Assembly (NCBI RefSeq): GCF_003050785.1
Contig: NZ_QAOH01000004.1
Location: 186,001 to 250,000, forward strand
Length of the DNA: 64,000 bases
From: Celeribacter persicus
GTDB lineage: Bacteria > Pseudomonadota > Alphaproteobacteria > Rhodobacterales > Rhodobacteraceae
Direction: 5' to 3'
Shown here piece after piece: positions 47,207-64,000 of the stretch. The position numbers and the translations under genes are program-made. Position 1 is the stretch's first letter. Each line of letters begins with the position of its first letter. Below the pieces are notes generated by a model that saw only the letters and a program-made list of their open reading frames with translations, was not told the origin of the DNA and searched no databases.

Positions 47207-47222
47207 AAACAGGAGAGTGTTC

Positions 47223-48452: not shown

Positions 48453-49600
48453 TGCGTATCGCCTATGTCTCGACCGATCCGGGAATCCCCGTTTTCGGCT
48501 GCAAAGGGGCCTCGATTCATGTGCAGGAGATGCTGCGGGCCTTCCTTGGCTTCGGCGCCGAGGTGACACTGATCGCGCCGGAACCGGCCGATCCCGCACC
48601 CGAGGGGCTTGGTTCTGTCCGGCTCCGCCCGCTTCCGCCCGCGCCGAAGGGCGATGCGGAGGCGCGGGCGACAGTGCTTCTGAACATGAACGCAGACGTC
48701 GCGGCGGCCCTTTCAGCGGAAGGTCCCTTCGACTTCGTCTACGAACGCCATGCGCTTTTCGCACATGCCGCGATGGAATGGGCGGCGGCGACAGGCGTAC
48801 CCGGCGCGCTGGAAGTCAACGCGCCGCTCATCGAGGAACAGATCCGACACCGCAGCCTCGCCCGCCTGTCCGAAGCGCAGGCCGTGACCCGGCGCGCGAT
48901 GATCTCTGCCGACCAAGTGCTTGCGGTCAGCACTGCGGTTGCGGATTACGCGCGCGGCTTCGGCGCGCGAACCCCTCACGTCGTTCCCAATGCCGTGAAT
49001 CCGGCGCGCTTCGCCGAACCCGCGCAGTTCGAGGGCCCGTTCACCGTTGGCTTTCTGGGCACGCTCAAACCCTGGCACGACGTGGCAACGCTGGTCGATG
49101 CCATGGCGCTGCTGGTGCGCCTGGAACCGCAAGCACGACTTCTGATCGTCGGAGACGGCCCCGAACGCGAGGCACTGACCCATCAGGTCGCGGAATTCGG
49201 CCTTTCGGGCTGCGCCGAATTCACCGGCGCGCTTCCCGCAAAGTCGGTGCCCGAGCAGCTTCGGCGCATGCATGTGGGCACCGCACCCTATCGGGGCAGC
49301 GATCCGTTCTACTTCTCGCCACTGAAGCTTTACGAATACATGGCCGCAGGCCTGCCGGTCGTTGCAAGCCGCGTCGGCACGCTTGACACGGTGGTGGCCG
49401 AGGCCCGGACCGGACGGCTGGTACCGCCCGACGATCCTGAGGCATTGGCACGCACGCTTGCCAATCTGGCGCAGTCACCACAGGCGCTGCGGAAAATGGG
49501 CGCCACGGCGCGGCACGATGTTCTTGCGCACCATACCTGGGATCGCGTGGCCGAACGCGTGCTGTCCCGTGCGGGCCTGACATTCGACGGGGCCGCGTGA
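48452..49600 (+). CDS. GT4-family glycosyltransferase, second
   Basis: A 382-residue GT-B enzyme. It starts MRIAYVSTDPGIPVFGCKGA, with GASIHVQEML for the N-domain. The C-domain shows FLGTLKPWHDVATLVDAM, LLIVGDGPEREAL and a GT4 E-x7-E region YFSPLKLYEYMAAGLPVVA. It is coupled to the previous gene (TGATG) and to the ABC exporter (TGATG). Sugar specificity is unknown. Confidence 0.88.
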   Translation: MRIAYVSTDPGIPVFGCKGASIHVQEMLRAFLGFGAEVTLIAPEPADPAPEGLGSVRLRPLPPAPKGDAEARATVLLNMNADVAAALSAEGPFDFVYERHALFAHAAMEWAAATGVPGALEVNAPLIEEQIRHRSLARLSEAQAVTRRAMISADQVLAVSTAVADYARGFGARTPHVVPNAVNPARFAEPAQFEGPFTVGFLGTLKPWHDVATLVDAMALLVRLEPQARLLIVGDGPEREALTHQVAEFGLSGCAEFTGALPAKSVPEQLRRMHVGTAPYRGSDPFYFSPLKLYEYMAAGLPVVASRVGTLDTVVAEARTGRLVPPDDPEALARTLANLAQSPQALRKMGATARHDVLAHHTWDRVAERVLSRAGLTFDGAA

Positions 49601-51438
49601 TGGCATCCCGCGGACATCGACAGACCCGTCTCAGAGACACCTTGCCGGGACTACGCAGGGTTGTGATGCGGATTGCACCCTACATGCGGCCCCATCGCGC
49701 GCTTGCGGCCGGAGGCGCAGCGGCGATGCTTGCCGCCGTCGCGGCGAAGCTTCTCGAACCCTGGCCGCTGAAATTCGTCATAGACCACGTGGTTCAGGTG
49801 GGCGGCGAGGCATCGCTTCCGTCGCTGCTGGCGACGCTGCCCGTGACCACGGTTCTGGCGATCGCCGCCGGCGGGCTGCTTCTGGTCGTCGCCCTGCGCG
49901 CGATCTTCGAATACGCGTCCACCATCGCCTTCGCGCTTGTCGGCAACCGCGTCCTGACCGCCGTCCGGGCAGATCTCTTCCGCCACCTCCAGACGCTGCC
50001 GCTTGCCTTTCATACCAAGGCCAAGACCGGCGACCTGACCATCCGGCTGATCTCGGACGTCGGCATGCTGAAGGAAACCGCTGTGACTGCGGCCCTGCCG
50101 CTTGCGGTGAACGGGCTGGTTCTGGCCGGGATGATCGCGGTGATGGTGGTGCTGAACTGGCAGCTTGCGCTGCTGGCGCTTCTTCCGCTGCCGCTCCTTT
50201 GGCTCGCCTCGCTCCGGATCGGGCGACGCATCCAGGGGGTGAGCCGGAAGGTCCGCAAGACCGAGGGCGACATGGCCGCCACCGCTGCCGAGGCGATGGC
50301 CGGCATCCGCACCGTTCAGGCCCTCGGTCTGGAAGAGCGCGTTTCGTCCGGCTTCGGCGGCGCCAATGCGAAAAGCCTTGCCCAAGGGGTGAAGGCCAAG
50401 CGCCTGGCCGCGAAACTGGAACGGCTGGTCGACGTGCTGGTTGGGGTGGCACTGGCCGCGGTCCTCTATGTCGGCACGCTTTTCGTGCTCGACGGGCGGA
50501 TCACGGCAGGCGATCTTCTGGTCTTTCTGACCTATCTCAAGAACACCTTCCGCCCGGTCCGCGACTACGCCAAGTATTCCGCGCGCCTTGCCAAGGCGAC
50601 GGCTGCGGGCGAGCGGGTGATCGAACTGCTCGACACACCTGCAACCCTGTCGGACCGGCCCGGTGCAGTTGCCGCCCGGATCGACGCCGGTCGTATCGAC
50701 CTCGACACGGTCGGGTTCAGTTACGACGGACAAGCCGTCCTGAGGGACGTCACACTGTCGATCCCCGCAGGACAGAGCGTAGCCATCACCGGTGTCTCGG
50801 GCGTCGGAAAATCGACCCTTACGAGCCTTCTGATGCGTCTCTACGATCCCGACACCGGCCGCATCCTGATCGACGGACAGGATCTGCGCGACGTCTCGCT
50901 GGCGAGCCTGCGCAGCCGGATCAGCTTTGTTCCGCAGGAAACACTGCTGTTTCGGGCCAGCGTCCGCGAAAACCTTGCCATCGCCGCAGGCCGGGAGGTG
51001 ACCGGGGAAGAGATCCGGGCCGCCGCGCAATTGGCTCATGCCGACGGCTTCATCGAGGCCCTGCCCGAAGGCTACGACACTGTGCTGGCCGAACGCGGCG
51101 GCACGCTCTCGGCTGGCCAGCGCCAGCGGATCGCCATCGCCCGGGCCGCGCTGCGGCAGGCGCCGATCCTGATCCTGGACGAACCGACCGTGGGGCTCGA
51201 CGGCCGGAACGAGGCCGCCGTGTCCGACGCAATCTGGCGGCTGGCCAAGGGACGGACGACGGTTTTCGTGACCCACGACCTGTCACTGGCCGCACGTGCG
51301 GACCGCATTCTTTGCCTGGAGGGCGGAGGCATCGGCCAGGACGGGACACATGCCGAACTGATCCGCGAGCCAGGGCTCTACCGGACGCTTTGGCAGCAGC
51401 AGAATGGAGGTCGCGATGCCATTGTCGCCGCCGAATAA
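49600..51438 (+). CDS. ABC exporter, permease-ATPase fusion (MsbA-like)
   Basis: A 612-residue half transporter. Six helices span about residues 25-320, followed by an ATPase domain. Walker A is GVSGVGKST (G398-, K404), the signature is LSAGQRQRIAIARAAL and Walker B is ILILDEPTVGLD. It is likely to export a lipid-linked or small glycoconjugate made by the neighbouring glycosyltransferases. Its last 23 bases overlap the next gene. Confidence 0.92.
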   Translation: MASRGHRQTRLRDTLPGLRRVVMRIAPYMRPHRALAAGGAAAMLAAVAAKLLEPWPLKFVIDHVVQVGGEASLPSLLATLPVTTVLAIAAGGLLLVVALRAIFEYASTIAFALVGNRVLTAVRADLFRHLQTLPLAFHTKAKTGDLTIRLISDVGMLKETAVTAALPLAVNGLVLAGMIAVMVVLNWQLALLALLPLPLLWLASLRIGRRIQGVSRKVRKTEGDMAATAAEAMAGIRTVQALGLEERVSSGFGGANAKSLAQGVKAKRLAAKLERLVDVLVGVALAAVLYVGTLFVLDGRITAGDLLVFLTYLKNTFRPVRDYAKYSARLAKATAAGERVIELLDTPATLSDRPGAVAARIDAGRIDLDTVGFSYDGQAVLRDVTLSIPAGQSVAITGVSGVGKSTLTSLLMRLYDPDTGRILIDGQDLRDVSLASLRSRISFVPQETLLFRASVRENLAIAAGREVTGEEIRAAAQLAHADGFIEALPEGYDTVLAERGGTLSAGQRQRIAIARAALRQAPILILDEPTVGLDGRNEAAVSDAIWRLAKGRTTVFVTHDLSLAARADRILCLEGGGIGQDGTHAELIREPGLYRTLWQQQNGGRDAIVAAE

Positions 51439-53560
51439 AGCTCTGGCTGCACGCGACCCGGCACTGCCGGGGCTGCGCCTCCTGCTCGACGACGCGGCAT
51501 TGGCGGAGGCGCTCGGGCAAAGCAAAATAATCCATCGCTACTTGCGCTACAAGCCCGGCACCTCCTGCCTGCGCGGCATCGAGATTTCCGGGGAGGAGGG
51601 GCCGGAATGGTATCTCGTCTTCGCCTATACCGAGCCCCGGTTCGCCGAGGCCGCGGAACGCCCCAAGTGGAGACACGGACGCCATAGCGTGCAACTCTTT
51701 CCAGACCAATGCGTCGCAATCGTCCCCGCGCGCCGGGATCGCAAGTTGCGGGCGCTGCGGCGGTTCATCGACCCCGGCCGGAATACCCGCATCCTGTCGG
51801 TCTTCGGACCGGACGCGACCCTCGTACCGCTTCGATACAAGCCCGAACGACGGCTCGTCGGACGGGTCGAGACCCGTGATGCCGCCTTTCTGCTGAAGGC
51901 GCATGCGCCCTCCGGTTTCAACCGTGCGCTTCCGGGTGCAGTTGCCGCCTCCGCACTCGGCGGGCCTGCACTGGTCCATGCCAATCCATCGCTCGGCCTC
52001 ATCGCCTGCGACTGGCTGGAGGGAGACACGCTTGATGCCACAGCCGGCTCTGACGCTTTCGCCGCTGCTGGTGCGGCGCTCGCTGCGATGCACGGACGTA
52101 GGGCGGTTCTGCCGCCTCTGGCGCCACGAAACCGCAGCATGGGGGACGATACGCTCGAGGCGATCTGCGAATCTTTAACTCTCGACCCCAAGAGATTGTC
52201 AAAAATAGACTTTTTCACATCCCGGATGATTGCCGAGCAACGCGGAAGCATCGGCCAGTGCCATGGCGATTTCAGCGCGGATCAATGCCTTCTGACCGCA
52301 AACGGCATCCGGATCGTCGACTGGGATTGCGCAGGGATCGGCGACCAAGGGGCGGATCTGGGCAGTTTTCTCGCCCGGCTGGACGCAGAAACCCTGGCCG
52401 GACGGATGCCCGTCATCACCGCTCGGAGGCTCGGCACATCCTTCCTTGAGGGCTATGCCAAAGAGCGCGCCCTGCCCCGGACGGTCGAGGCACAACGATT
52501 GCGGCATCTGTTCATGCTTTCGACGGAGCCCTTCCGCGAACAATGGAACAACTGGGACCGGGCCATTCTCGGGCTGGTCGACCATCTCGAAACCGCACTC
52601 TCATGCCAGACAGCAGAAACGCCGGGGCTTTCCGCCGCGCTGACGCCACAGAGCGCGGAACGATTCCTTCGCGATGCCACGGGCTACAGCCTTTCGGGCG
52701 CGCCAAAGCTTCTGCGGCACAAGCCCGGGCGACGGGCACTCGTGCGATACGATTGCCAAGAGGGCCCGGCCATCCTGGGCAAGCTTCACGCGCGCAAACG
52801 AGACTGGCGGACACCGGCCGTTCATGCCCGGATGCGAGAGCTCGGGTTCGACGGCACTGGCGCCGGCGAAGCGGCTGTACCAAAGGCCTGGCCAGCCCCG
52901 GGCGACCAGAACCTCTGGTTCATGGAGGAGGTGGAAGGCACGGCGCTTTCGGAATTCCAGACCACAAGTGCCGATCCCGCCGTGTTCCGGCGAACCGGCC
53001 AGGCGCTGGCAGAACTGCATGCCGCCCCTCTGGACCTCGACCGCAACTGGAACCACGGAAACGAGCTTTCGGTCCTCGGCAAGGCCCTCGACACGGCACG
53101 AGAGACGCAGGACCCGGTGCATCTGGATCGTGCGCACATTCTGGCGGCACAGAAGCTTGCCGCACTTCCACCTGTGCAGGAGCGACCGATTCACCGCGAC
53201 TTCTACCCCGACCAGGTCCTTGTCGCGCAGCGCAAGATCTGGCTTCTCGACCTCGATCTCGCAGCGATGGGCGATCCTGCCATTGATCTTGGGAATTTCG
53301 AGGCGCATCTGATCGAATACGCACTGCGGAGCACCGGCGACCCCTGGGCGCTTCAGCACCATGCAACAGCATTTTTCGCCGGATATGCAGACATGCGACC
53401 TGCGCCCGATCCCCATCGCGTGCGGGTGCTCCGTGATGTCTCGCTGCTACGCCACGCCCATATCGCCACGCGGTTCCCCGACCGCCGGGCCTTCGCGCCC
53501 GGGATCCTGGAGCTATCGCTTGATCTGCTGTCCGAGGTCGGGACCTGCGAGGCATCCTGA
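51416..53560 (+). CDS. Tandem aminoglycoside-phosphotransferase-like kinase, two domains
   Basis: A 714-residue protein with two APH/choline-kinase-like domains in one chain. The first (about 30-390) has catalytic D285 in CHGDFSADQ with IRIVDWDCAG after it. The second (about 400-700) has D595 in IHRDFYPDQ with IWLLDLDLAAMGDPAIDLGN. Each retains the Brenner and metal motifs, so both may be active. It probably phosphorylates a sugar, amino alcohol or glycolipid for the operon product. GGAGG precedes the chosen ATG. Confidence 0.85.
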   Translation: MPLSPPNKALAARDPALPGLRLLLDDAALAEALGQSKIIHRYLRYKPGTSCLRGIEISGEEGPEWYLVFAYTEPRFAEAAERPKWRHGRHSVQLFPDQCVAIVPARRDRKLRALRRFIDPGRNTRILSVFGPDATLVPLRYKPERRLVGRVETRDAAFLLKAHAPSGFNRALPGAVAASALGGPALVHANPSLGLIACDWLEGDTLDATAGSDAFAAAGAALAAMHGRRAVLPPLAPRNRSMGDDTLEAICESLTLDPKRLSKIDFFTSRMIAEQRGSIGQCHGDFSADQCLLTANGIRIVDWDCAGIGDQGADLGSFLARLDAETLAGRMPVITARRLGTSFLEGYAKERALPRTVEAQRLRHLFMLSTEPFREQWNNWDRAILGLVDHLETALSCQTAETPGLSAALTPQSAERFLRDATGYSLSGAPKLLRHKPGRRALVRYDCQEGPAILGKLHARKRDWRTPAVHARMRELGFDGTGAGEAAVPKAWPAPGDQNLWFMEEVEGTALSEFQTTSADPAVFRRTGQALAELHAAPLDLDRNWNHGNELSVLGKALDTARETQDPVHLDRAHILAAQKLAALPPVQERPIHRDFYPDQVLVAQRKIWLLDLDLAAMGDPAIDLGNFEAHLIEYALRSTGDPWALQHHATAFFAGYADMRPAPDPHRVRVLRDVSLLRHAHIATRFPDRRAFAPGILELSLDLLSEVGTCEAS

Positions 53561-53570
53561 CGCAGCCATC

Positions 53571-54242
53571 TCAGTCCATGCGGTAGCCGACATGGCGGAT
53601 GGTCACGATCCGCTCCCCTTCTTCGCCGAGCTTCCGGCGGAGGCGGCCGACATAGACGTCAACGACGTTGGTCAGCGGATCCGCACTAAGCCCCCAGACC
53701 GCGTTGAGGATACGCTCCCGGGCCAGTACGCGACCGGAATTCGACATGAAGAGCAGAAGGAGATCGCGCTCCTTCGCGGAAAAATTGATTTCCCGACCGT
53801 CCAATGACACCGAAAGCGCCACCTTGTCGAAGACGATCGACCCCAGTTCGATCCGATCTTCACGGGTATCTATGGCATAGCCGTTCGCGCGGCGGCTCAG
53901 CGCCTCAATCCGGGCGACGAGTTCGTCGAAGTCGAAGGGTTTCGGCAGGTAATCGTCTGCACCTGCCTTGAGCCCGCCGACACGCTCGTCGATCCCGTCG
54001 AGCGCGGTCAGCATCAGGATGGGCGTCGTATCGGACCGCGCGCGCATCAGCCGACAGACATCGAGCCCCTGCATCCCGGGCAGCATGAGATCGAGAAGCA
54101 CGACGTCGTAATGGTTGCCGGCCAAAAGCTCGAGTCCCGTCTCACCGTCCATGGCGTGATCGACGCTCCAGCCCTCGCCGGCAAGCCCCCGGCGCACGAA
54201 ACCCGCGACACGTTCCTCATCCTCGATCAGCAAAATGTTCAT
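53571..54242 (-). CDS. OmpR-family response regulator
   Basis: A 223-residue regulator with receiver phospho-acceptor D51 in VVLLDLMLPGMQG, the conserved Lys in LPKPFDFDELVARIEAL, and a C-terminal winged helix with DVYVGRLRRKLGEEGERIVT. The partner kinase gene lies 52 bp upstream. A GGAAT-N16-CGTT site inside the end of that kinase gene (54306-54330) gives it a possible separate promoter. The phased repeats at 45829 are a candidate target. Confidence 0.93.
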   Translation of the reverse strand: MNILLIEDEERVAGFVRRGLAGEGWSVDHAMDGETGLELLAGNHYDVVLLDLMLPGMQGLDVCRLMRARSDTTPILMLTALDGIDERVGGLKAGADDYLPKPFDFDELVARIEALSRRANGYAIDTREDRIELGSIVFDKVALSVSLDGREINFSAKERDLLLLFMSNSGRVLARERILNAVWGLSADPLTNVVDVYVGRLRRKLGEEGERIVTIRHVGYRMD

Positions 54243-54294: not shown

Positions 54295-55929
54295 TCAGAT
54301 TGGATAACGTTTGGAGCCGCGTGTTATTCCAATCTGTTGGTCGAATATTTTCCACGCCGTACTACGCGTCCCTTCGACCGCTTGTATGCGTGGTTTTTGG
54401 GGCAGTTCCAAAATAATCCTGACGCCCCCAGTTTCTACATCCTTGATGCTGGCGCTTCCACCATGTGCTTCCACGATCGCCTTCACGATAGGCAGACCAA
54501 GACCGCTGCCGTCCTCGCTGCCGCGGCTGGCATTGTTCCCGCGAAAGAAACGCTCAAACGCGTGAGCCTTTTCCTGATCGGTCATTCCCGGGCCGTCATC
54601 CTCGACGGTGAAGACATGCGCCTCGGGACCTGTTTCGAGCCGCGCCGATATCCGCGGCCCTCCGTATCGCCGGGCGTTCTGGAACACGGCGAGAATGCAC
54701 TGCCGGAGCCGGGTCTCGTCGACACTGGCGTATACCGGGTCGGAGGGGTAGGCGAGATCGATGTGGCCGGGAAACATTTCCACCGCATCCCTGAGAATCT
54801 TTCGCAGGTCCGTCTCGTGCAGATGGAGCCGGAGCTGGCCGGCCTCGCGCCGGGCGATGGTCAGAAGGTCGTCGACGATCTGGTTGGTGTGGCGCGCTGC
54901 ATCCCTGATCCGGCCGAGCGAATCCGACAGGTCGTCGGGAAGATCGGCACCTGTCCGCAGCGCCACCTCGGCCTCGCCGAGGATGATGGCGAGCGGTGTG
55001 CGGAGCTCGTGGCTGATGTCGGCCAGAAGCTGGCGGCGGTTGGCCTCGCCGCTTTCGACCCGCTCGGCGATCCGCTGGAGTTCCTTCGCACGTTCGCTGA
55101 CCTGGGTTTCGAGTTCCCGCTGGCGTTCCGCATAGATCACGTCGCGCGCCTTCAGCGACGACGACATGTCGTCGAGCACAGCGCAGAGTTCGGCGACTTC
55201 CCGGCTACCGCCGACCGGCCCGGCCACAGGATAGACGCCGCGCTTGAGGTCCGCGAGGCGGTTGCCGATCTGGAGAAGCGGTGCGCGGATCTGGCGGTGG
55301 AACGACCAGAGCGCCGTGACTAGGACGGCCAGCGAGACGATGACCAGAGCGAAGACGACACGCCTGTTCGCGGCACGGAAGGCAGAGGCATGGGCAAGAA
55401 CCTCGGCCACCTCGGCGCGCTCGCCCTCAATGGCGGCTTCGATATTGCGCGTCAGCAGCACGTCGATCCGGCGGTCGAGAAGGTCGGTCAGTCGGCTCAG
55501 TTGAACGTCCCTGTTAATCGCCCCCCCGGAAACGGTGATCGCGGAAAGGGCCGTCGTGATATCCCTCAGCTCCTCCTCGATCTCGGCGAGCAGTCCGAGT
55601 TCCGCAATCTCCTCGTCACCGACCATTCTTATTTCCCGCCCGATGACGTTCCGGATCGCGGCGATCAGGTCGGAGATTCGTGTCATGAGCGCCTCTTCGC
55701 CGACACCGCCGTCGCGGTCGCCAATCAGAAGCGCGTCACCATGTTGTTTGAAGAGCCGAAACACCGCCGCCTCAAGTTCCAGGTGTAGCTGATAGGATTC
55801 ATGGGCGAGTTCCGTACGTGCCTCCCACTGCCTGTGCCGCTCGATCCCGTAGAGCGCCGCCGCAGTCGAGGCGACGATCAGGAACGCGAGAAGTCCCGCA
55901 TAAAAGGTAAAAAGTGTACTCGCTCTCAT
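54295..55929 (-). CDS. Sensor histidine kinase
   Basis: A 544-residue inner-membrane kinase. Helix 1 is FTFYAGLLAFLIVASTAAAL, then a periplasmic sensor domain of about 170 mostly helical residues, helix 2 VVFALVIVSLAVLVTALWSF, a HAMP-like linker, and HisKA with phosphorylated H307 (LADISHELRTPLAI). The ATPase motifs FTVEDDGPGMTD and GSGLGLPIVKAIVEAHGG follow. The start MRASTLFTF is chosen; the frame is open further upstream without family support. ATGA couples it to a small upstream ORF. Confidence 0.9.
   Translation of the reverse strand: MRASTLFTFYAGLLAFLIVASTAAALYGIERHRQWEARTELAHESYQLHLELEAAVFRLFKQHGDALLIGDRDGGVGEEALMTRISDLIAAIRNVIGREIRMVGDEEIAELGLLAEIEEELRDITTALSAITVSGGAINRDVQLSRLTDLLDRRIDVLLTRNIEAAIEGERAEVAEVLAHASAFRAANRRVVFALVIVSLAVLVTALWSFHRQIRAPLLQIGNRLADLKRGVYPVAGPVGGSREVAELCAVLDDMSSSLKARDVIYAERQRELETQVSERAKELQRIAERVESGEANRRQLLADISHELRTPLAIILGEAEVALRTGADLPDDLSDSLGRIRDAARHTNQIVDDLLTIARREAGQLRLHLHETDLRKILRDAVEMFPGHIDLAYPSDPVYASVDETRLRQCILAVFQNARRYGGPRISARLETGPEAHVFTVEDDGPGMTDQEKAHAFERFFRGNNASRGSEDGSGLGLPIVKAIVEAHGGSASIKDVETGGVRIILELPQKPRIQAVEGTRSTAWKIFDQQIGITRGSKRYPI
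54306..54330 (-). promoter_or_regulatory. ECF-type promoter site for the response regulator
   Basis: On the minus strand GGAAT (54330-54326), 16 bases, CGTT (54309-54306). It is within the 3' end of the kinase gene and 64 bp from the regulator start. Confidence 0.65.
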
Positions 55930-56204
55930 TTCGTCATCCCGAAATACAAACACGGCAGGCGCGCCGTAAGGCACAGTCTGACCACCCGGTATGAGTTTTG
56001 CCTGTCGGATGCATGAACGGCAGATGAACGCAGGAAGACCCGGATTGGACCCGGCCAAACGGAAGCGAGGGACACAAGGCTGGCGCTGAAGACGTCGAGG
56101 GCGGCGAAGGCCCCCGTCACGAACATTCCATCGAACACCAAAGTCGGGATACTGGCCGAAGCGGACAGCGTGGTGGCCGCTGCGAGGAAGAGGATGTGCT
56201 TCAT
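55926..56204 (-). CDS. Small possible membrane or secreted protein coupled to the kinase
   Basis: A 92-residue ORF starting MKHILFLAAATTLSASASIP, a signal-like hydrophobic start, followed by a second hydrophobic stretch and a basic C-terminal third. I recognise no family and no strong ribosome-binding site. Support comes from context: its stop overlaps the kinase start as ATGA, and a GGAAT-N16-CGTA promoter-like site is placed 40 bp upstream. It could instead be an untranslated leader. Confidence 0.4.
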   Translation of the reverse strand: MKHILFLAAATTLSASASIPTLVFDGMFVTGAFAALDVFSASLVSLASVWPGPIRVFLRSSAVHASDRQNSYRVVRLCLTARLPCLYFGMTK

Positions 56205-56243
56205 AGCAAATGGACTCATCTGGACGGTGGATTGTGAAGAGTC

Positions 56244-56268
56244 TACGTCCGTAAGCTGGTGGTATTCC
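56244..56268 (-). promoter_or_regulatory. ECF-type promoter site upstream of the small ORF and kinase
   Basis: On the minus strand GGAAT (56268-56264), 16 bases, CGTA (56247-56244), 40 bp before the small ORF start. Confidence 0.65.
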
Positions 56269-56410
56269 GCAGGCATCAATCGGCAACGGATGCGACACGG
56301 CTCCTGGCTGTTCCGAAGCCTACGCAACACCTAGATCGACATGGCGCGCCGAGCGAAACAGAGATCGATGTGACTGAAACGCCCGAAGCAGCGACGGTCG
56401 ACAGAAACCG

Positions 56411-56435
56411 GGAATAACTTAAGCCCTAGCGCGTA
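56411..56435 (+). promoter_or_regulatory. ECF-type promoter site upstream of the decayed anti-sigma gene
   Basis: GGAAT (56411-56415), 16 bases, CGTA (56432-56435), 28 bp before the ATG at 56463, with TAAGGAG between. Confidence 0.7.
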
Positions 56436-56462
56436 GACATTCGGAGGGTAAGGAGACGCGTG

Positions 56463-57222
56463 ATGGATGCGACCCAATTTAATGACGTGACACTCATGGC
56501 CTGTGCCAACGGAGAGCTCGACGAATTGACCTTCGCAAAAATCCGTAAGGCCGCCGCAGACGATCCGGCCATCACCGGGCGTATCGAGATGTTCGCACGA
56601 ACTGCATCGGCGCTTGGCACTGCGGCGACGGCCTGACCGCTCGTTCCCCTGTCGCAAGATCTGACCGCCCGTGTTGAAGCGACATGTGAAACCGCTCACA
56701 CGGCTCCGGAAAAGACGGTTGTGCCGTTCCCCGCTGCGCCCGCCCGCACCGCCCCTACCGCCCAATGGTGCTGGCCGCGAGCGTCGCGCTTCTGGCGGGC
56801 CTCGTCGGCGGTATCTTGGCGACACTGACCGTTCGCGGACCGGCGGAACCAGCAGACCAGCCGGTGGCGCTCGTCGACATGGCGGGCGTTTCCGATGCAC
56901 TCGGGTCGCTCGCGACCGGAGGGCACGAGGCCGCCGGGGACGGCGAAATCGTGATCATCGCCTCGTTCGAGACCGGCGACGGAGATTTCTGCGGGGAGTT
57001 CGAATTCGGCACAATGGGCGACGACATCGTGGTGTCGGTGGTCTGCCGCACGGAAGACGGATGGTAAACCCGTTTTGCGATGATCTTCATCGACAAGGGC
57101 AATACGAGCTACGCGCCAGTCTTCTCCCTCAAACCCCTCGACACCTACCTGTCGGGCATCGCGCCAGCGCGCCGCTTTCCGTCGACGACAAGGCCGCACG
57201 CCTCGGTGCCGGAGCCGATTGA
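56463..57222 (+). pseudogene. Decayed anti-sigma factor, paralog of the gene at 61646-62386
   Basis: The first 57 codons (MDATQFNDVTLMACANGELD...) stop at a TGA at 56634, but the same frame continues with PLSQDLTARVEATCETAHTAPE, parallel to PLPQPLKAKIDRAF in the intact paralog. A frameshift near 56760 leads into the membrane segment LAASVALLAGLVGGIL. The downstream GDFCGEFEF matches GTLCREFEF. A stop follows TEDGW at 57065 where the paralog continues, and another frameshift precedes APLSVDDKAARLGAGAD. Upstream promoter and ribosome-binding site are intact. Confidence 0.85.
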
Positions 57223-57263
57223 CAGAAGCGACGCCAGACCGTCGCCGCCACGGCCTACCGGGA

Positions 57264-57296
57264 GAAAAAACACCGCCCCGCCTTCTGCAGGGCGGT
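57264..57296 (-). terminator. Intrinsic terminator of the Asp-rich peptide gene
   Basis: ACCGCCC (57272-57278) pairs with GGGCGGT (57290-57296); read on the minus strand the stem is followed by GTGTTTTTTC. Confidence 0.85.
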
Positions 57297-57338
57297 CTGG
57301 TTTTCGGAGGATGCCGCTGCTATGAGCCTGCCTGGCGA

Positions 57339-57620
57339 TCAATCGTCGTCGTCGTTATCCCCGTCGTCATCGTCATCGTCGCGGCTGCTATCGTCGTCAT
57401 CGTCATGACCGCCGTAGCCGTCATCGTTGTTCCAGCCGCCGCGGTTGTCGTCGTCATCGTTCCAGCGGGAACGCGATGGACCACTGCCGGAACTCTGGAA
57501 GATCGAGTTCAGCAAACGCAGAACCGGATCGTCACCCTGCGCCAAGGAAGGCTCGGGTAATGCGGTCATGAGCGCGGTGGCGACAACCGTGGCTGCCAGC
57601 GCGGTTTTGAAGGTAGGCAT
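57339..57620 (-). CDS. Secreted Asp-rich small protein
   Basis: A 93-residue protein with an AAAGGAG ribosome-binding site. MPTFKTALAATVVATALMTA is a Sec signal peptide with a likely Ala-Gln cleavage at about residue 27 (SLAQ-GDD). A short helical part, VLRLLNSIFQSSGSG, is followed by a tail of about 45 residues that is mostly Asp with Gly, Asn, Trp and Arg. I know no family. Such a tail could bind calcium or other cations. It has its own ECF-type promoter and terminator, and the S8 peptidase at 63027 carries a similar Asp-rich stretch. Confidence 0.8.
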   Translation of the reverse strand: MPTFKTALAATVVATALMTALPEPSLAQGDDPVLRLLNSIFQSSGSGPSRSRWNDDDDNRGGWNNDDGYGGHDDDDDSSRDDDDDDGDNDDDD

Positions 57621-57669
57621 TTCGGTCTCCTTTCGGTGCAGGCCCACTCTGCTCGGGCTTCACAGGGAC

Positions 57670-57694
57670 AACGGACGGGACCGGCGTCTATTCC
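57670..57694 (-). promoter_or_regulatory. ECF-type promoter site of the Asp-rich peptide gene
   Basis: On the minus strand GGAAT (57694-57690), 16 bases, CGTT (57673-57670), 50 bp before the start and overlapping the last codons of the DCC gene. Confidence 0.7.
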
Positions 57695-58098
57695 GAACCG
57701 TTCGAACTTTTTTGCTCCATACCGATCGGGACCCGCCCCGCAAGGCGCAGAAAGGCCCGGCGACCGAAGACGAGCACGGGGTACAGCCGCGCCGCGCGGT
57801 CGGGCGATGCGAAAAGCATCTTTTGGATGCGGTTCAAAATACCGGTGCCTTCCGACGACAGAGTCGCAAGCAGATGAACAGCGGCGTCACCGTAAAAGAC
57901 CTGCCTCTCCCACAGGGCGATCATTCCGGCGTCGAGGTCGTAGCCTTTGGCGCAGAGCACGGCGACACGGGGATCGGTGCTGCGCGCGTCGACAAGTTCG
58001 ACCCGGCCCACAACCTCCCGCAACCGCACCAGGCGCAGATAGGAGGCGCAAAACAGGCATTCACCATCGTAGATCACGGTCAGTCCCGGACCGGTCAT
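57688..58098 (-). CDS. DCC-family (DUF393) thiol-disulfide oxidoreductase-like protein
   Basis: A 136-residue protein with the family's D-x-x-C-x-x-C motif: D11, C14 and C17 in IYDGECLFCASYLRL. The MQKMLFASPDRAARLYPVLV-like C-terminal part is usual for this group. DCC proteins are often next to or fused with HTTM/VKGC-like membrane proteins, as here: the HTTM gene is divergent across 86 bp and both share one symmetrical promoter. Its redox partner is unknown. Confidence 0.9.
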   Translation of the reverse strand: MTGPGLTVIYDGECLFCASYLRLVRLREVVGRVELVDARSTDPRVAVLCAKGYDLDAGMIALWERQVFYGDAAVHLLATLSSEGTGILNRIQKMLFASPDRAARLYPVLVFGRRAFLRLAGRVPIGMEQKSSNGSE

Positions 58099-58126
58099 GA
58101 AATGTCTCCAAAAATTGCTATCATAA

Positions 58127-58158
58127 GGGAATAACGTCCGGGCTGACCCGTTATTCCC
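58127..58158. promoter_or_regulatory. Symmetrical divergent ECF-type promoter of the DCC and HTTM genes
   Basis: GGGAATAACG (58127-58136) and CGTTATTCCC (58149-58158) are exact complements with a 12-base centre. On the plus strand this gives GGAAT (58128-58132), 16 bases, CGTT (58149-58152). On the minus strand it gives GGAAT (58157-58153), 16 bases, CGTT (58136-58133). One element therefore carries two opposed copies of the promoter motif. Confidence 0.75.
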
Positions 58159-58184
58159 AAGACAATATAGAACGGAGACCGCGC

Positions 58185-59609
58185 ATGACCACAACCGATG
58201 GCACCCTGACCGACCGCCCCGATATCGCCGCACGGCTCAGGCCGCTCCGCGACGCTCTGTCCCGGCCCGTGTCGCCCCTGTCGCTGGCAATATTCCGGAT
58301 CGCACTCGGCGCGCTTCTGTTGTGGGACTGCTGGCGGTTCATCAAATACGACCGCATCTACCGTTATTGGGTCGAGCCGGAATTCCATTTCACCTACACG
58401 GGATTCGGATGGGTCACCCCCCTGCCCGAGCCCTGGATCTACCTGGCCTGGCTCACGGTCGGGCTTTCGGCACTGTTCGTCGCGCTTGGCCTGTTCTACC
58501 GTGTCTCGATCGTGATTCTGACGGTGACGTTCGGCTACTTCTTCCTTCTCGACAAGGCGGAATACCTGAACCACTTCTACCTCGTCATCCTGTTCCTGAT
58601 CCTGATGTGCTTCCTCCCCGCGCACCGGAGCCTGTCACTCGACGCGAAACTGTTCCCGCGCGTGCGTGCCACCCACATTCCCTATGCCTCGGTGGCGATC
58701 CTGCGGGCGCAAATGGAGATCATGCTGGTCTTCGCGGGCCTCGTGAAGCTGACACCGGACTGGCTGGCGGGCGAGCCCCTCGGCCTCTGGCTCAGGGCCC
58801 AATCGGAGGATTTCCTGTTCGGGTTCCTGTTCCAGTACGACTGGGTGATTCTGGCAGGAACATGGAGCACCGTAGCGTTACACATCTTCGGCGCACCGCT
58901 GCTTTTGTGGAAACGGACGCGGCTGGCGATCTTCCTCGTCTACTGCCTGTTCCATTCGGCCAATTCGGTGTTCTTCAACATCGGCATCTTCCCCTGGTTG
59001 ACCATCGCCGCAACGACGATCTTCTTCGCGCCGGACTGGCCCCTGCGTTTCGGGCGCTGGCTGCATTCCTGTTTCGAAGATTTGCCGGAACCCAAAACAG
59101 ACCCCGCCCCCACGCGTGCAAAACCGGTCGCGGGCATCGCGCTACTGGCCGCAGCGGTCTGGGTGGTGGTTCAGGTGGCGCTGCCGTTGCGGGCCGGGAC
59201 GATCCCGACCGAAGTCCGCTGGAGCGGTGACGGACACCGATTTTCATGGCGGATGCGGATCTTCGACCGGAATGCCGACGGCGTCTTTCTGGTGACTGCC
59301 GGTGATCAGAGCTGGACGATCGAACCAACCGATTACCTGACCCCGAGGCAGACGGGAAAGATGCTGGTGCGCTCGGACATGATCCACCAGTTCGCCAGTC
59401 ATCTGGAACGGATCTGGCAGGATGCCGGATATGGCAACGTCGAAGTGCGCGCCGAGATATTGAAATCGCTGAACGGCCGCCCGCCACAGCGCTATGTCGA
59501 CCCGGCAATGGACCTGACAGCGGTTACGCTCTCCCATACAGGACCCGACGGTTGGGTACTGCCGCTGGAAGAACCCGTCTGGGGAGTGGTCCACAACGCA
59601 GACCGCTGA
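58185..59609 (+). CDS. HTTM-domain membrane protein (vitamin-K-dependent carboxylase-like)
   Basis: A 474-residue protein with about eight helices in residues 30-300 and a C-terminal soluble domain of about 150 residues. Helix patterns SLAIFRIALGALLLWDCWRF and KAEYLNHFYLVILFLILMCF with LPAHRSLSLDA are HTTM landmarks, the fold of the gamma-glutamyl carboxylase membrane domain. The catalytic reaction of bacterial members is mostly unknown. It shares a divergent promoter with the DCC gene. A role in modifying an exported peptide is possible but unproven. Confidence 0.88.
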   Translation: MTTTDGTLTDRPDIAARLRPLRDALSRPVSPLSLAIFRIALGALLLWDCWRFIKYDRIYRYWVEPEFHFTYTGFGWVTPLPEPWIYLAWLTVGLSALFVALGLFYRVSIVILTVTFGYFFLLDKAEYLNHFYLVILFLILMCFLPAHRSLSLDAKLFPRVRATHIPYASVAILRAQMEIMLVFAGLVKLTPDWLAGEPLGLWLRAQSEDFLFGFLFQYDWVILAGTWSTVALHIFGAPLLLWKRTRLAIFLVYCLFHSANSVFFNIGIFPWLTIAATTIFFAPDWPLRFGRWLHSCFEDLPEPKTDPAPTRAKPVAGIALLAAAVWVVVQVALPLRAGTIPTEVRWSGDGHRFSWRMRIFDRNADGVFLVTAGDQSWTIEPTDYLTPRQTGKMLVRSDMIHQFASHLERIWQDAGYGNVEVRAEILKSLNGRPPQRYVDPAMDLTAVTLSHTGPDGWVLPLEEPVWGVVHNADR

Positions 59610-59980
59610 GACCCGCGACGGACAAAGGACTTGCCAAGCTACCACCACTACGCTTAGTGCTTTGGCCCGCCGAAGTCCCAAGGGGAACGAGCCAGATTGG
59701 CCCTCGGACACCTCGCGAAAGGGAGACAAGCGTGGTTCGCAGCCAAAAACGACCGACCGCGCCGCCTTCGATTTCGTTCATGTCTCTACTCCGGTATCCG
59801 GAGGCAGCCTCAACATCCTCAAATGCTGGGGCGACGTGGATATCCCGCCCAAACTGAGCCTCCCCATGTGAAATGGCCCACCGTTATGTCTAAAGCGTTT
59901 ATATGTTGCACAGCGTTTTTCTTTATTCTCTGCCTCAGATAAAATGAAAAACGCTTTAGGAAACGGAGGGCAGAAAATTG
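59610..59980. other. Intergenic region after HTTM, with REP-like element
   Basis: No supported gene in 371 bp. It contains the second REP-like hairpin at 59890-59959; the rest looks degenerate. Confidence 0.4.
59890..59959. repeat. REP-like hairpin element, copy 2
   Basis: CTAAAGCGTTT (59890-59900) is the exact complement of 59949-59959. The arms differ from those at 30948 by one transition and length; the 48-base centre is unrelated. It lies next to IS remnants. Confidence 0.55.
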
Positions 59981-60156
59981 TGAACACGCGGCACAAGCCC
60001 GAGAAAACATTCCCGAAACTGAGGCAGGTTGATGTGCTTGTCGGGCAGGGAATGGCGCGTGTGGATACGATCCACAAAATTCGCATCGCTGAACAAACCT
60101 TCCACTTCTGGCGCAAGCAGTGCGACGGAAGTGGAACGGCCCAACTCAAGAAATGA
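59981..60156 (+). pseudogene. IS3-family OrfA-like remnant
   Basis: About 58 codons: TRHKPEKTFPKLRQVDVLVG then GMARVDTIHKIRIAEQTFHFWRKQ. This is the helix-turn-helix start of IS3/IS2-type OrfA, changed at several positions that are normally conserved. The frame ends at a stop and no OrfB partner is seen downstream. Confidence 0.75.
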
Positions 60157-60386
60157 ACTGATACGGTTGTCGAATCGCAGCTGTCGCGTCAAGCGGCGTG
60201 TCGCCGTTCTGTCCCTGATCTGCCGGATGCATGGTTGTCTTCATGGTCGGCATCTGCCGCCGCATCATGAAGATTCGCGGAAAGAACCTTCAATGTGGAT
60301 GACGCACTCTGCAGCTTTGGCGGTGCAGCTGCATCAACGGAATGACTTGTCCCTCATCTTGGCAGGGGCGTTCCTGACGATCGACT

Positions 60387-60700
60387 TTGATCGCCTGTTT
60401 CAGCTCCTTATGCCACCTTTCCCAGCAAGAATCAAAACATGTGCCAGTCTTGAGCATCGAATGCATAACGATAGCCAACTTGCGGGCAACAGCGACCGCG
60501 GCGTGCTTCCCCCCCTCATACCTTCTGGCCAAAGCCCCAGATCGTTGTCGCGGGTCACCCGCGTCAAGATGGTCATTGCGTCTTGAAGAGTAGCCCATGC
60601 AAATTGCGGTCGCCCCGCCGGGAGATATGCCCGTCGTAATATATCTCTCCAGATTGGTATCGGCCCGTCGTCAGATCCACCCAAGCGCCAGTGGCTCTCG
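60387..60700 (-). pseudogene. IS110-family transposase C-terminal remnant
   Basis: GRYQSGEIYYDGHISRRGDR, then after a frameshift ILTRVTRDNDLGLW and KHAAVAVARKLAIVMHSMLK. These are the C-terminal transposase_20 motifs of IS110. It points opposite to the N-terminal fragment at 61015. Confidence 0.75.
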
Positions 60701-61014
60701 ATGTCCGAAAGTTGCCGGGGATCAATATGAGCAGGCTGCAAACCTGATCCCTGCGAGCGGCGGCAACGAGTTGCCAGCCCAGCTCGGCAGCGCGCCTGCG
60801 GGTCTTGTCCCAGCCCTCCAGCCAAGGCAGGACGGAATTTCTTTGACCAGCAAACACAACTGAATATGGTCGCCTGAAACCAAGCAACAGCCTCCGGCGA
60901 ACCCGGAGCGTTCATTTAAGAGAAAATTTGCACTGACCGGTTCAATGGTATGGCCCGCCCCCGCCCGGCGGCAGTGACACTTCGGCATCCAGAAGGTGAA
61001 AGAGCAGACATACC

Positions 61015-61560
61015 ATGGATATCGTGAGCATCGGCCTAGACCTGGCCATGACTGTGTTTCAGATCCACGGCGCTGGCAGCAACGAGTAGACCTTGATGAG
61101 GAAAACACTACGACGCCGTGCTGTCGCGCCATTTTCTGCTCAATTGCCGCCTTGCTTGGTCGGCATGGAAACCTGCAGCGGTTCACATTTATCAGGCGCG
61201 GGTGCTGTCCGGGCTCGGACACGAGCTCAGGCTGATCTCGCAGCAATTCGTTACCCCGAACATTAAATCGAATAAGAATGACCGAATTGATCTGCGGAGC
61301 CGCTGGCCGCCCGTCGATGCGGTTCGTTCCACAAAAATCGCCGGAACAACTGGAGCTACAGGCTGTCCACCGCATCCGGCAGAGGCTGATCTCGGACCGG
61401 ACGCGGCTTGCGAAGCAGATACGAGGCCTGTCAGCTGAACATAGTGTCGTGATCACCCGCGACATCAATCGTCTACGCCAAGCCCTTCGGCAGATCGTGG
61501 ATGGGTGCGGCAGAGACGACGGCGTGCCGGATATGATCCGCAATTGCGAAGCTTCGGGCC
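61015..61560 (+). pseudogene. IS110-family transposase N-terminal remnant
   Basis: MDIVSIGLDLAMTVFQIHGA is the DEDD-type N-terminus. A stop follows 24 codons in, with later segments in other frames: NKNDR near 61275 and FVPQKSPEQLELQAVHRIRQ, ISDRTRLAKQIRGL. Several frameshifts make it inactive. Confidence 0.8.
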
Positions 61561-61645
61561 CAACCAGATCAGGCGTTGTAATCAAACGGAGTCCATATAC
61601 ATCCAAACACGCATCGCCTTCCCTTTGAGAAACTGGGAAAGCTGC

Positions 61646-62386
61646 TTAGCGCGCAAGGGCAGAAAGACTGTCTGCCTCACTCTCGGCGGAGAGCGGCGGA
61701 CCTGCGTCGATTGAGACCAGATAGGCGTCTAGCGCATCGTGCGAGGACGCAGGGGCATAACCGCCCGATGCGACATCGGCGATCACCGCGAAGCGTAATA
61801 CCCAAGTGTCATCGCTGTGGCAGGCGACAGCGATATGCGCCCGCGCGCTCCCATCGAACTCGAACTCCCGGCAAAGCGTACCGTCCGCATCGCGAAACGA
61901 GGCAATTGCCCGCACGACGCCGCCTGCCACATGGCGTTCTGCGCCGGAGGGGAGATCATTCAGTGTGGCCCTGACCACCGACGTAGAGAGCACAGCGAGG
62001 TCCGCCACAGTTGTTTGCGGTGTCAACGTCCGGCTCAGTAGCAGGCCGCCACCGAGGCCAATGGCTAGTGCAATGCTCGCTGCCAGCGCCAACGGCTGCC
62101 ATTCGGTTTTTCGGCGTTGCCGCAACGGCACGATCACCTCTGGCGCGGTCTCTGCATTGGCGAAGGCCCTGTCGATTTTCGCTTTGAGCGGCTGAGGCAA
62201 CGGTGCCTCGGATCGTGCCAGTGCAGCCTGTTTTAGTATATGCTTGGTCTCGCCGAAGAGCGCGACACGGTCTGCCACTGAGGAGTCCGCCTGCATGGCC
62301 ACTTCGACAGCGCGTGAGGTTTCCGAGTCCAGTTCACCATCGGCGTAGGCCATCAGGATTTCATCGCTTAGCTTGGGTTTCGTCAT
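61646..62386 (-). CDS. Anti-sigma factor
   Basis: A 246-residue protein. The cytosolic N-terminal domain (residues 1-90) opens DEILMAYADGELDSETSRAV, the form seen in ECF anti-sigma factors; no zinc-binding CxxC is present. One membrane helix follows at LALAASIALAIGLGGGLLL (about residue 100-120), then a periplasmic domain with AIASFRDADGTLCREFEFDG. It lies 43 bp downstream of the ECF sigma gene, the usual cotranscribed pair. The decayed copy at 56463 shares all of these parts. Confidence 0.82.
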   Translation of the reverse strand: MTKPKLSDEILMAYADGELDSETSRAVEVAMQADSSVADRVALFGETKHILKQAALARSEAPLPQPLKAKIDRAFANAETAPEVIVPLRQRRKTEWQPLALAASIALAIGLGGGLLLSRTLTPQTTVADLAVLSTSVVRATLNDLPSGAERHVAGGVVRAIASFRDADGTLCREFEFDGSARAHIAVACHSDDTWVLRFAVIADVASGGYAPASSHDALDAYLVSIDAGPPLSAESEADSLSALAR

Positions 62387-62429
62387 GTCGCTCTTGCTCC
62401 CTGTCCCCTCGTCTACGCACAAGGTGGCA

Positions 62430-62918
62430 CTATATTCCCAGTTTTTTCGCCAAGGCCACGCGGCCCCGCGCCAGCCGGCTCATGACCGTCCCGCGCGGGA
62501 TGTCCAGGATCGCAGCCGCCTCGGCATAGGACAGTTCCTCATAGCACACGAGCAGGATCACCTCGCGCTGATCGTCCGGAAGCTCGTCGAGCGCCTTTTC
62601 CGTTGCACTCAGCATCAGGCGCGCATCCGTGATCTGCCGCCCGTCGATCGCCGCCGCATCGGGCGCGTCACTGACATCGATCTCGGTGCCCCGGGTTCTT
62701 CGCCGCCGCAACATGTCGAGCCAGGCATTGCGCAGGATTCGGAACAACCAGGGTTCGATCCGCTGAGACCCGTCATAACGGTCGCAGGCGGCAATCGCGC
62801 GCTCTACGGTCATTTGGACCAGGTCGTCCGCCAAGTCGGGATTCCGGCAGAGCGATAATGCGAATCTGCGCAACGGGACGAGTTGGGCGACGATGTCTTG
62901 TTCGAAACGGTGATTCAT
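62430..62918 (-). CDS. ECF RNA polymerase sigma factor
   Basis: A 162-residue group IV sigma factor. Region 2 spans about residues 10-75 (LCRNPDLADDLVQMTVERAI and RIEPWLFRILRNAWLDMLRR), and region 4 is at the C-terminus (LPDDQREVILLVCYEELSYA then IPRGTVMSRLARGRVAL). The start MNHRFEQD is chosen over a longer frame. It pairs with the anti-sigma gene below it. It is the likely reader of the GGAAT-N16-CGT(T/A) sites of this region. I see no such site upstream of its own gene. Confidence 0.93.
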   Translation of the reverse strand: MNHRFEQDIVAQLVPLRRFALSLCRNPDLADDLVQMTVERAIAACDRYDGSQRIEPWLFRILRNAWLDMLRRRRTRGTEIDVSDAPDAAAIDGRQITDARLMLSATEKALDELPDDQREVILLVCYEELSYAEAAAILDIPRGTVMSRLARGRVALAKKLGI

Positions 62919-62957
62919 ACCCGCCTGTCCACTGTCTGTTTGCCGCCCAGGGCAGAT

Positions 62958-62982
62958 GGAATTATCTCTGGTCACAACCGTA
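62958..62982 (+). promoter_or_regulatory. ECF-type promoter site of the S8 peptidase gene
   Basis: GGAAT (62958-62962), 16 bases, CGTA (62979-62982), 45 bp before the ATG at 63027. Confidence 0.7.
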
Positions 62983-63026: not shown

Positions 63027-64000
63027 ATGTTAAAAAAAATTCTGCTTGCTCACTTGCTTGCCTCTGTCGTGTTGTTCTGCGTTGCCGAAGCGCCATGGCC
63101 CGGGCTGGCCACGCCCGCATGGGCCGATGACGATGACGACGACGGTAGTAACGATAATGGTGGCGACAATGATGATGATGATGATGACAGCCGTAAGCCA
63201 AGCGCGTCACACAGCGGTGGTAGCAAGGAGGGGCTTTCCCGCCTGTTTCGGCGCGCCCCTGCGCAACCGCAACAGGTGCCTCGCGCGGCGTCGCGCTCCG
63301 CCCCAGTGCCACCGCCGCCGGAGCAGGCTGCGGCAGAGATCGTCACCAACGGGCTTTCGTCCGCAGACCTGACCACGCTTGAAAGCGAGGGCTATCAGTC
63401 GCTCGAAGTCCGGCAGTTGGCGCGCCTCGGTACGGAGGTCCGCCGTCTCTCGATACCACCGGGGGTCTCTCTGACCGACGCGCGCATGCGGGTGGGGGCG
63501 TTGTCCTCGGTATCGACTGTCGATTTCAATCACTATTACCGCACCGAGCAGGGCTTTGCACCGGATTGCCAAGGCGGCGACTGTCCCGCGCGGCTCAGCA
63601 TCGGTTGGCCGTTGCCGCCATCGCGAAGCGGATGCGGCAGCGGTGTAGCCATCGGCATGATCGACACTGGCATCAACGATGCGCATGAAACCTTCGCGGG
63701 CGCCGCTCTCGAATTGCACCGGCTCTCGGACGACGGCCTGACGCCCTCCAGGAACCTGCACGGCACCGCTATTGCTGCGCTTCTGATCGGCGATCCGGCA
63801 ACGCGTTCTCCCGGGCTTGTGCCCGGCGCCTCGCTGGTCGCCGTGGATTCCTTTCACCGGGAGGGCCGCGACGAGCGCGCCGATGTCTTTACTCTGACCG
63901 ACGCGCTCTCCTTTCTCGCCGAGCGTGACGTGCGGGTGATCAACCTCAGCCTCGCTGGGCCCGAAAACGCGGTTTTGGAAGAGATCACCGCGCGGCTCGT
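63027..64000 (+). CDS. Secreted S8 (subtilisin-like) peptidase, 3' end outside the window
   Basis: 324 codons are visible. A signal peptide, MLKKILLAHLLASVVLFCVA, is followed by a cleavage region near TPAWADD and a tail of about 22 residues rich in Asp, Asn and Gly. A proline-rich pro-region and an N-terminal domain come next, then the protease domain: catalytic D213 in IGMIDTGIND and H245 in NLHGTAIAALLIGDP. The serine lies beyond the window. An alternative ATG five codons upstream exists. It is divergent from the sigma and anti-sigma genes. Confidence 0.9.
   Translation, partial: MLKKILLAHLLASVVLFCVAEAPWPGLATPAWADDDDDDGSNDNGGDNDDDDDDSRKPSASHSGGSKEGLSRLFRRAPAQPQQVPRAASRSAPVPPPPEQAAAEIVTNGLSSADLTTLESEGYQSLEVRQLARLGTEVRRLSIPPGVSLTDARMRVGALSSVSTVDFNHYYRTEQGFAPDCQGGDCPARLSIGWPLPPSRSGCGSGVAIGMIDTGINDAHETFAGAALELHRLSDDGLTPSRNLHGTAIAALLIGDPATRSPGLVPGASLVAVDSFHREGRDERADVFTLTDALSFLAERDVRVINLSLAGPENAVLEEITARL

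Follow-up and report, generated by a model that had tools for sequence, protein, structure and literature searches.

The sigma factor locus and its promoter sites

The stretch analysed here, hereafter the window, comprises 64,000 nucleotides of the Celeribacter persicus genome (contig NZ_QAOH01000004.1, positions 186,001 to 250,000 of the forward strand). Toward its right end lies the gene for an extracytoplasmic function (ECF) sigma factor of 162 aa (62430..62918, minus strand), which exhibits the two-domain architecture of regions 2 and 4 in a profile search (Sigma70_r2 and r4_2). It is followed by the gene for a putative anti-sigma factor of 246 aa (61646..62386, minus strand), assigned by a sub-threshold NCBIfam antisigma match and by alignment, with a single apparent membrane helix at about residues 103–127 (by eye) and a predicted structure in which the N-terminal part is helical (mean pLDDT 70). 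An S8 peptidase gene, divergent from the sigma gene, occupies 63027..64000 of the window on the plus strand and ends at 64436 (Peptidase_S8, E 2.9e-29); its product carries an Asp-rich stretch right after a signal-like N-terminus. Nine GGAAT-N16-CGTW sites are clustered across 10.17 kb around these genes, including one just right of the window, and the cluster very probably constitutes a local regulon of the ECF26 type, resembling that of RpoE6.

The S8 protease gene is preceded by a promoter site at 62958–62982 (+), and after that gene a site beyond the window edge at 64455–64479 (+; C4:250455) precedes a set of alpha/beta hydrolase, DUF1611 and ABC genes, 32 bp before the hydrolase start. 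The GGAAT-N16-CGTA promoter of the anti-sigma gene (62414–62438, minus strand) extends across the sigma stop codon, 27 bp before the ATG; in fact, the final sigma codons GGA ATA (Gly-Ile, 62430–62438) are its −35 box. The sigma gene of this locus was not found to have a GGAAT-N16-CGTW-type site of its own. Further to the left, a palindromic two-way promoter separates the gene for an HTTM/vitamin K-dependent gamma-carboxylase homologue of 474 aa (58185..59609, plus strand; HTTM E 1e-77, VKGC_lumenal_dom E 8.7e-34) from that for a DCC1-like thiol-disulfide oxidoreductase family protein with a CxxC motif (57688..58098, minus strand; PF04134 E 2.9e-7). Its HTTM-side half lies at 58128–58152 (+) and its DCC-side half at 58133–58157 (−). 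The site at 57670–57694 (−) is the promoter of the gene for an Asp-rich, secreted-looking peptide of 93 aa with the C-terminus NDDDD (57339..57620, minus strand). The leftmost sites are located at 56411–56435 (+), upstream of a broken second anti-sigma copy (start 56463), at 56244–56268 (−), upstream of a 97-codon open reading frame (ORF; start 56219) of doubtful reality that overlaps the start of a kinase gene, and at 54306–54330 (−), in the 3′ end of that kinase gene and 63 bp before a response regulator gene.

The distance to the next same-strand start codon is 24–63 bp at the nine sites, and the −35 box reads GGAATA at eight of them and GGAATT at the S8 protease gene. Promoters of ECF26 sigmas of the RpoE6 subtype have −35 GGAATA and −10 GT about 16–17 bases apart, a form to which the cluster conforms. 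Among sites starting at 54000–66500, nine have the N16 spacing, as opposed to two for the other 17 spacings (8–25) together. The 64-kb window contains nine GGAAT-N16-CGTW matches, and 100 shuffles of it give 0.72 ± 0.82, none reaching nine; the ninth window match, at 48775 (+), falls within a called ORF and probably reflects chance. An earlier interpretation made without database searches (the sequence-only reading) had listed seven sites with a fixed 16-base spacing, and all seven were recovered at the coordinates and on the strands that it gave, with the spacing it described. Two more belong to the cluster, however (62414–62438 on the minus strand and 64455 on the plus strand), and the distance of 28–64 bp that it quoted to the starts becomes 24–63 bp over nine sites. 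Its list of driven genes (response regulator, kinase, Asp-rich peptide, DCC, HTTM and S8) lacked the anti-sigma gene and the hydrolase-DUF1611-ABC set, which also have sites, and the kinase is reached only via the upstream small ORF.

A genome-wide count, which the same reading had proposed, gave 43 matches to GGAAT-N16-CGTW in 4.30 Mb, nine of them clustered here. A reversed-pattern control gives 17 and the window shuffle rate, extrapolated to the whole genome, about 48 expected matches, so that neither control is exact. Given the density of the remaining 34 matches, the Poisson probability of nine sites in 10.17 kb is ~4e-16. Outside the cluster, 30 of the 34 lie in called ORFs (29) or in 23S rRNA (one, L152) and four in neither; the ORF calls come from a small purpose-written codon-based gene caller and are approximate, as it missed the real anti-sigma gene. 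The extended motif GGAATA-N15-CGTWGTC has 14 genome matches at one mismatch or fewer, six of which are in the cluster. At two mismatches or fewer it has 132 matches as opposed to 181 for its reversed control, and therefore no distant target can be claimed.

Related loci and the RpoE6 precedent

Relatives were collected in a named-genome scan with the sigma protein, from which the best 80 of 129 loci were taken, and from 198 family genomes, of which 122 match the sigma at E ≤ 1e-15, few of them closely. Loci with an S8 protease gene beside the sigma gene were then compared with the remaining sigma loci. The S8 gene was identified by tblastn or annotation in 26 of the 27 loci of the S8 group; the stretch of L158 ends beside the sigma gene and has no S8 gene, and its inclusion rests on a close sigma, an anti-sigma gene and sites. 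The 27 loci (494 kb, window included) contain 72 GGAAT-N-CGTW matches with N16, 27 with N17 and 38 over the 17 remaining spacings (8–26) together, and without the window N16 or N17 accounts for 90 of the 125 matches over 19 spacings in 26 loci. In contrast, the 74 other sigma loci (1.18 Mb), many of which match part of the sigma, contain nine N16 and ten N17 matches, not above other spacings, and these counts are unchanged when L068, the only one with a weak S8 match, is removed. The letters after CGTW show a bias to TC at the second and third places.

The positions of the sites, counted with the pattern GGAAT-N16/17-CGT, are likewise conserved. Window included, a site faces the S8 side in 24 of 27 loci, 18 loci carry one at the sigma stop, ahead of the anti-sigma gene, and in 15 the −35 box falls on the last sigma codons (offsets 12–16). 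A site at the sigma start is present in seven loci, and L158 alone has both start and stop sites; feedback is thus wired to the sigma or the anti-sigma gene and rarely to both. Sites were also found around the sigma gene of an Idiomarina metagenome-assembled genome, a gammaproteobacterium. The closest relative (86%) is L032, which shares the S8-hydrolase-DUF1611-ABC neighbourhood of the window; its record is labelled Enemella evansiae, which looks wrong.

Judged by sequence, the nearest studied sigma factor is RpoE6 of Sinorhizobium meliloti and not EcfG, with which the sequence-only reading had drawn its comparison; over 95% of its length the S. meliloti sigma shares 53% identity with that of the window. 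The available portions of the RpoE6 study assign this sigma to group ECF26, describe a divergent serine protease gene in a widely conserved arrangement, place a possible RpoE6-dependent promoter for the anti-sigma gene within the sigma ORF and locate the most prominent targets nearby (PMC6180224). The RpoE6-dependent promoters given there for SMa0142, SMa0144 and SMa0148 each read GGAAT-N16-CGTT by our count (PMC6180224). The window and the RpoE6-EcfR6/SMa0142 system thus share a related sigma, a divergent S8 protease and a box of this form at the protease gene, within the sigma ORF for the anti-sigma gene and at a neighbouring gene, and those portions of the study list no such box for the sigma gene itself (PMC6180224). 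The same promoter sequences were found at the S8, anti-sigma and DUF6065 genes of an S. meliloti M162 plasmid (L165). Since the promoters have the same form and the sigma is 53% identical, the switch is of a known kind. The two systems differ in that overproduced RpoE6 raised about 40 genes according to the same source (PMC6180224), whereas no clear site was found here outside the cluster, and the L165 gene listing (from incomplete PLSDB tables) contains no HTTM, DCC or hydrolase-DUF1611-ABC set.

The idea that one local sigma drives the cluster, put forward in the sequence-only reading, is therefore backed by conserved positions near related sigmas, by the absence of sites near distant sigmas and by the RpoE6 promoters (PMC6180224). 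The 16-base rule stated with it holds in the cluster, although relatives use N17 too, and the label "stimulon" may be apt for the gene set. In the proposed mechanism, the membrane anti-sigma factor would hold the sigma until an envelope signal releases it, and RNA polymerase with the freed sigma would start transcription at the nine GGAAT-N16-CGTW promoters. The outputs would be the S8 protease, the hydrolase-DUF1611-ABC set, the Asp-rich peptide, DCC, the carboxylase homologue, the response regulator and probably the kinase. Extra anti-sigma made from its own site would close a negative loop.

Several observations weigh against a local regulon of this form. No transcription data for Celeribacter persicus were found. 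The NCBIfam antisigma match (E 2.7e-10) falls short of the curated cut-off, and the predicted anti-sigma structure had no match at E ≤ 0.001 in a fold search. L037 has no site at any of the three core positions, and L035, L162, L170, L171 and others each lack one of them. The outside-cluster count (34) is twice the reversed control (17), and one match, at L011 1501–1525, is outside all called ORFs, with a called start 38 bp downstream; a distant target is thus still conceivable, and L011 is a weak candidate for one.

Further such points concern the general stress sigma EcfG (ECF15), whose box, GGAAC-N16/17-CGTT, is related. One NepR was found in the genome, on contig C3 next to another sigma relative and not beside the window sigma, so that a general-stress sigma with a similar box is probably present. 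The regulons of RpoE6 and RpoE2 are moreover described as overlapping in S. meliloti in the available portions of the study cited above (PMC6180224). That EcfG, and not the local sigma, mainly reads the sites is nevertheless improbable, as they follow the S8-linked sigma and not other sigma genes, and the sigma neighbour here is a putative membrane anti-sigma factor. Furthermore, all nine cluster sites read GGAAT instead of GGAAC, and sites also surround the sigma of the Idiomarina genome, gammaproteobacteria not being known to have EcfG. The sites could alternatively be operators of a dimeric transcription factor, for instance the local response regulator, as the near-perfect inverted repeat between HTTM and DCC might suggest. 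This is more improbable still: the remaining sites are directional and stand 24–63 bp from starts, published sites of the same form respond to RpoE6 (PMC6180224), and among the stretches of relatives that were searched only two (L035, L156) have a response regulator of at least 45% identity. That a short pattern recurs by chance, which the 34 matches elsewhere in the genome would allow, is hardly credible against a clustering P of ~4e-16, a spacing-specific signal and conservation in relatives.

The carboxylase homologue, DCC protein and Asp-rich peptides

Human GGCX is the enzyme that matures blood-clotting proteins, and the HTTM protein matches human GGCX chains at E 8e-39. Like the human enzyme, it combines HTTM with the lumenal domain and keeps equivalents of K218, H160 and N159, which align by position count to K188, H130 and N129 and are invariant in 9/9 homologues. 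Unlike in human GGCX, the Y395 position is occupied by H351, which is not invariant. A Leptospira homologue reportedly exhibits altered activity. In GGCX, according to the available part of the source, K218 is the active base, and N159, H160 and Y395 coordinate the Glu side chain (PMC12589487). A further difference is that the neighbouring candidate peptides are Asp-rich and Glu-poor, in place of a Glu-rich substrate with a docking propeptide (no propeptide search was made). In a search for host synthesis of vitamin K (menaquinone), which covered menA, none of the nine genomes was over the model cut-off and two gave weak matches.

HTTM homologues were surveyed in 390 genomes of the order at E ≤ 1e-30 and are present in ten, as nine full-length genes (that of the window included) and two broken ones (L191, L192), one of which sits in a genome also bearing a full-length copy. 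The full-length gene of genome G417 has a TGA among its first matched codons. A phylum-wide search revealed the VKGC lumenal domain in two of 398 genomes.

An Asp-rich short ORF (at least 11 Asp in 30 residues) is found in eight of the nine HTTM loci, as opposed to none of 63 control loci (1.12 Mb). The nine such ORFs at these eight loci encode peptides with 22–42 Asp and 1–3 Glu, every one ending in DDDD, and an EF-hand-like stretch was seen by eye in three of them. A site lies 17–53 bp upstream in six cases and 231–233 bp upstream in two (L184 and L185), where no further convincing ORF was found inside the leader between site and gene; the second L183 peptide follows 383 bp after the site of the first. 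HTTM and DCC share a single inverted repeat, GGAATAACG-N-CGTTATTCC or a close variant, with both halves intact in seven of the nine HTTM loci. Each −35 box in this repeat overlaps the −10 box of the opposite strand, and the boxes are constant between loci while the spacer letters vary. L186 retains one side of the palindromic promoter, and L188 has an HTTM gene but lacks a DCC match, an Asp-rich short ORF and the palindromic promoter.

The sigma type is present at 45–68% identity in all eight other genomes with a full-length HTTM gene; in two of these it is located on another contig than HTTM (L201, L205), together with an anti-sigma gene, an S8 gene and a site. In genome G474, whose only HTTM gene is broken (L192), the search at E ≤ 1e-20 gave only a sigma relative of the distant kind (41%), and no N16 or N17 site was found near the broken copy. 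As this is one genome, it gives a hint of HTTM–sigma covariation. Two Bacteroidota homologues (L196, L197) have no ORF with at least 11 Asp in 30 residues within 6 kb on each side, and the peptide association is therefore documented so far only within this bacterial family. Among the top-ranked titles and abstracts listed from one open library, on topics that included palindromic ECF promoters, none described the association of HTTM, DCC and Asp-rich peptide.

The strongest guess is that the gene set produces secreted, calcium-related, Asp-rich surface material. A likeness may be drawn to BapA of the related bacterium Paracoccus denitrificans, an Asp-rich, calcium-related surface protein in biofilm formation, as described in the available part of its study (PMC5588039). 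BapA differs from the peptides in its 2,211 residues, its Asp-Ala repeats and its type I secretion system (PMC5588039), and no homology is claimed. It is conceivable, if rather doubtful, that the GGCX-like enzyme, with DCC as redox partner, would carboxylate aspartates of the DDDD-tailed peptides and so give calcium-binding surface material, with a single palindromic two-way ECF promoter in control. Such carboxylation would perhaps extend to the Asp-rich head of the S8 protease.

Exchangeable cargo and neighbouring genes

Different genes stand under the same promoter type in different relatives. The hydrolase and DUF1611 genes occur in the window, L032, L162, L164, L168, L170 and L184, and five of the seven have a CGTW site ahead of the hydrolase; L168 has a near match ending in CGTC and L184 has none. 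On plasmid p1 of Paracoccus albus, HTTM, DCC, Asp-rich peptide, hydrolase, DUF1611, ABC, S8, sigma and anti-sigma genes occur together with six sites, five of them N16 and one N17. An SLC13 permease and a glycerate kinase lie under sites in L166 and L167, and DUF4956 and polyphosphate polymerase genes do so in L169 and L171 (Aminobacter and Nitratireductor plasmids).

At the left end of the cluster lie the genes for a sensor histidine kinase (54295..55929, minus strand; HisKA, HATPase_c) and an OmpR-type response regulator (53571..54242, minus strand; Response_reg, Trans_reg_C). A site between the two is found in the window and in L156 (L156:5818) and not in L035 or L170, where both genes are present. 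The anti-sigma paralogue at 56463..57068 (plus strand) is broken by in-frame stops, and together with its own site at 56411 it suggests a decayed paralogous sigma/anti-sigma unit. In the gap between the HTTM and anti-sigma genes (60290–61640), short broken ORFs look like insertion-sequence remnants, with what we take to be an IS110-like start near 61016. The region at 47217–53560, which adjoins the cluster, encodes an MsbA-like exporter, two glycosyltransferases and a protein containing two APH-type kinase stretches, the best NCBIfam match of which is LxmK, below cut-off; the sole motif match in this region is the one at 48775, inside an ORF.

There is good support for the switch, for its boxes and for its gene set; the switch is already known in kind, and the cargo looks new. 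The relatives point to one core of sigma, anti-sigma and S8 protease with swappable cargo, namely hydrolase-DUF1611-ABC, HTTM-DCC-Asp peptide, SLC13-glycerate kinase and DUF4956-polyphosphate polymerase. An ECF sigma type whose role was left undefined in the available portions of the RpoE6 study (PMC6180224) is now tied to definite recurring outputs, and bacterial gamma-carboxylase homologues gain a candidate substrate. If the proposed carboxylation holds true, it would represent an Asp-directed bacterial equivalent of Gla-protein maturation.

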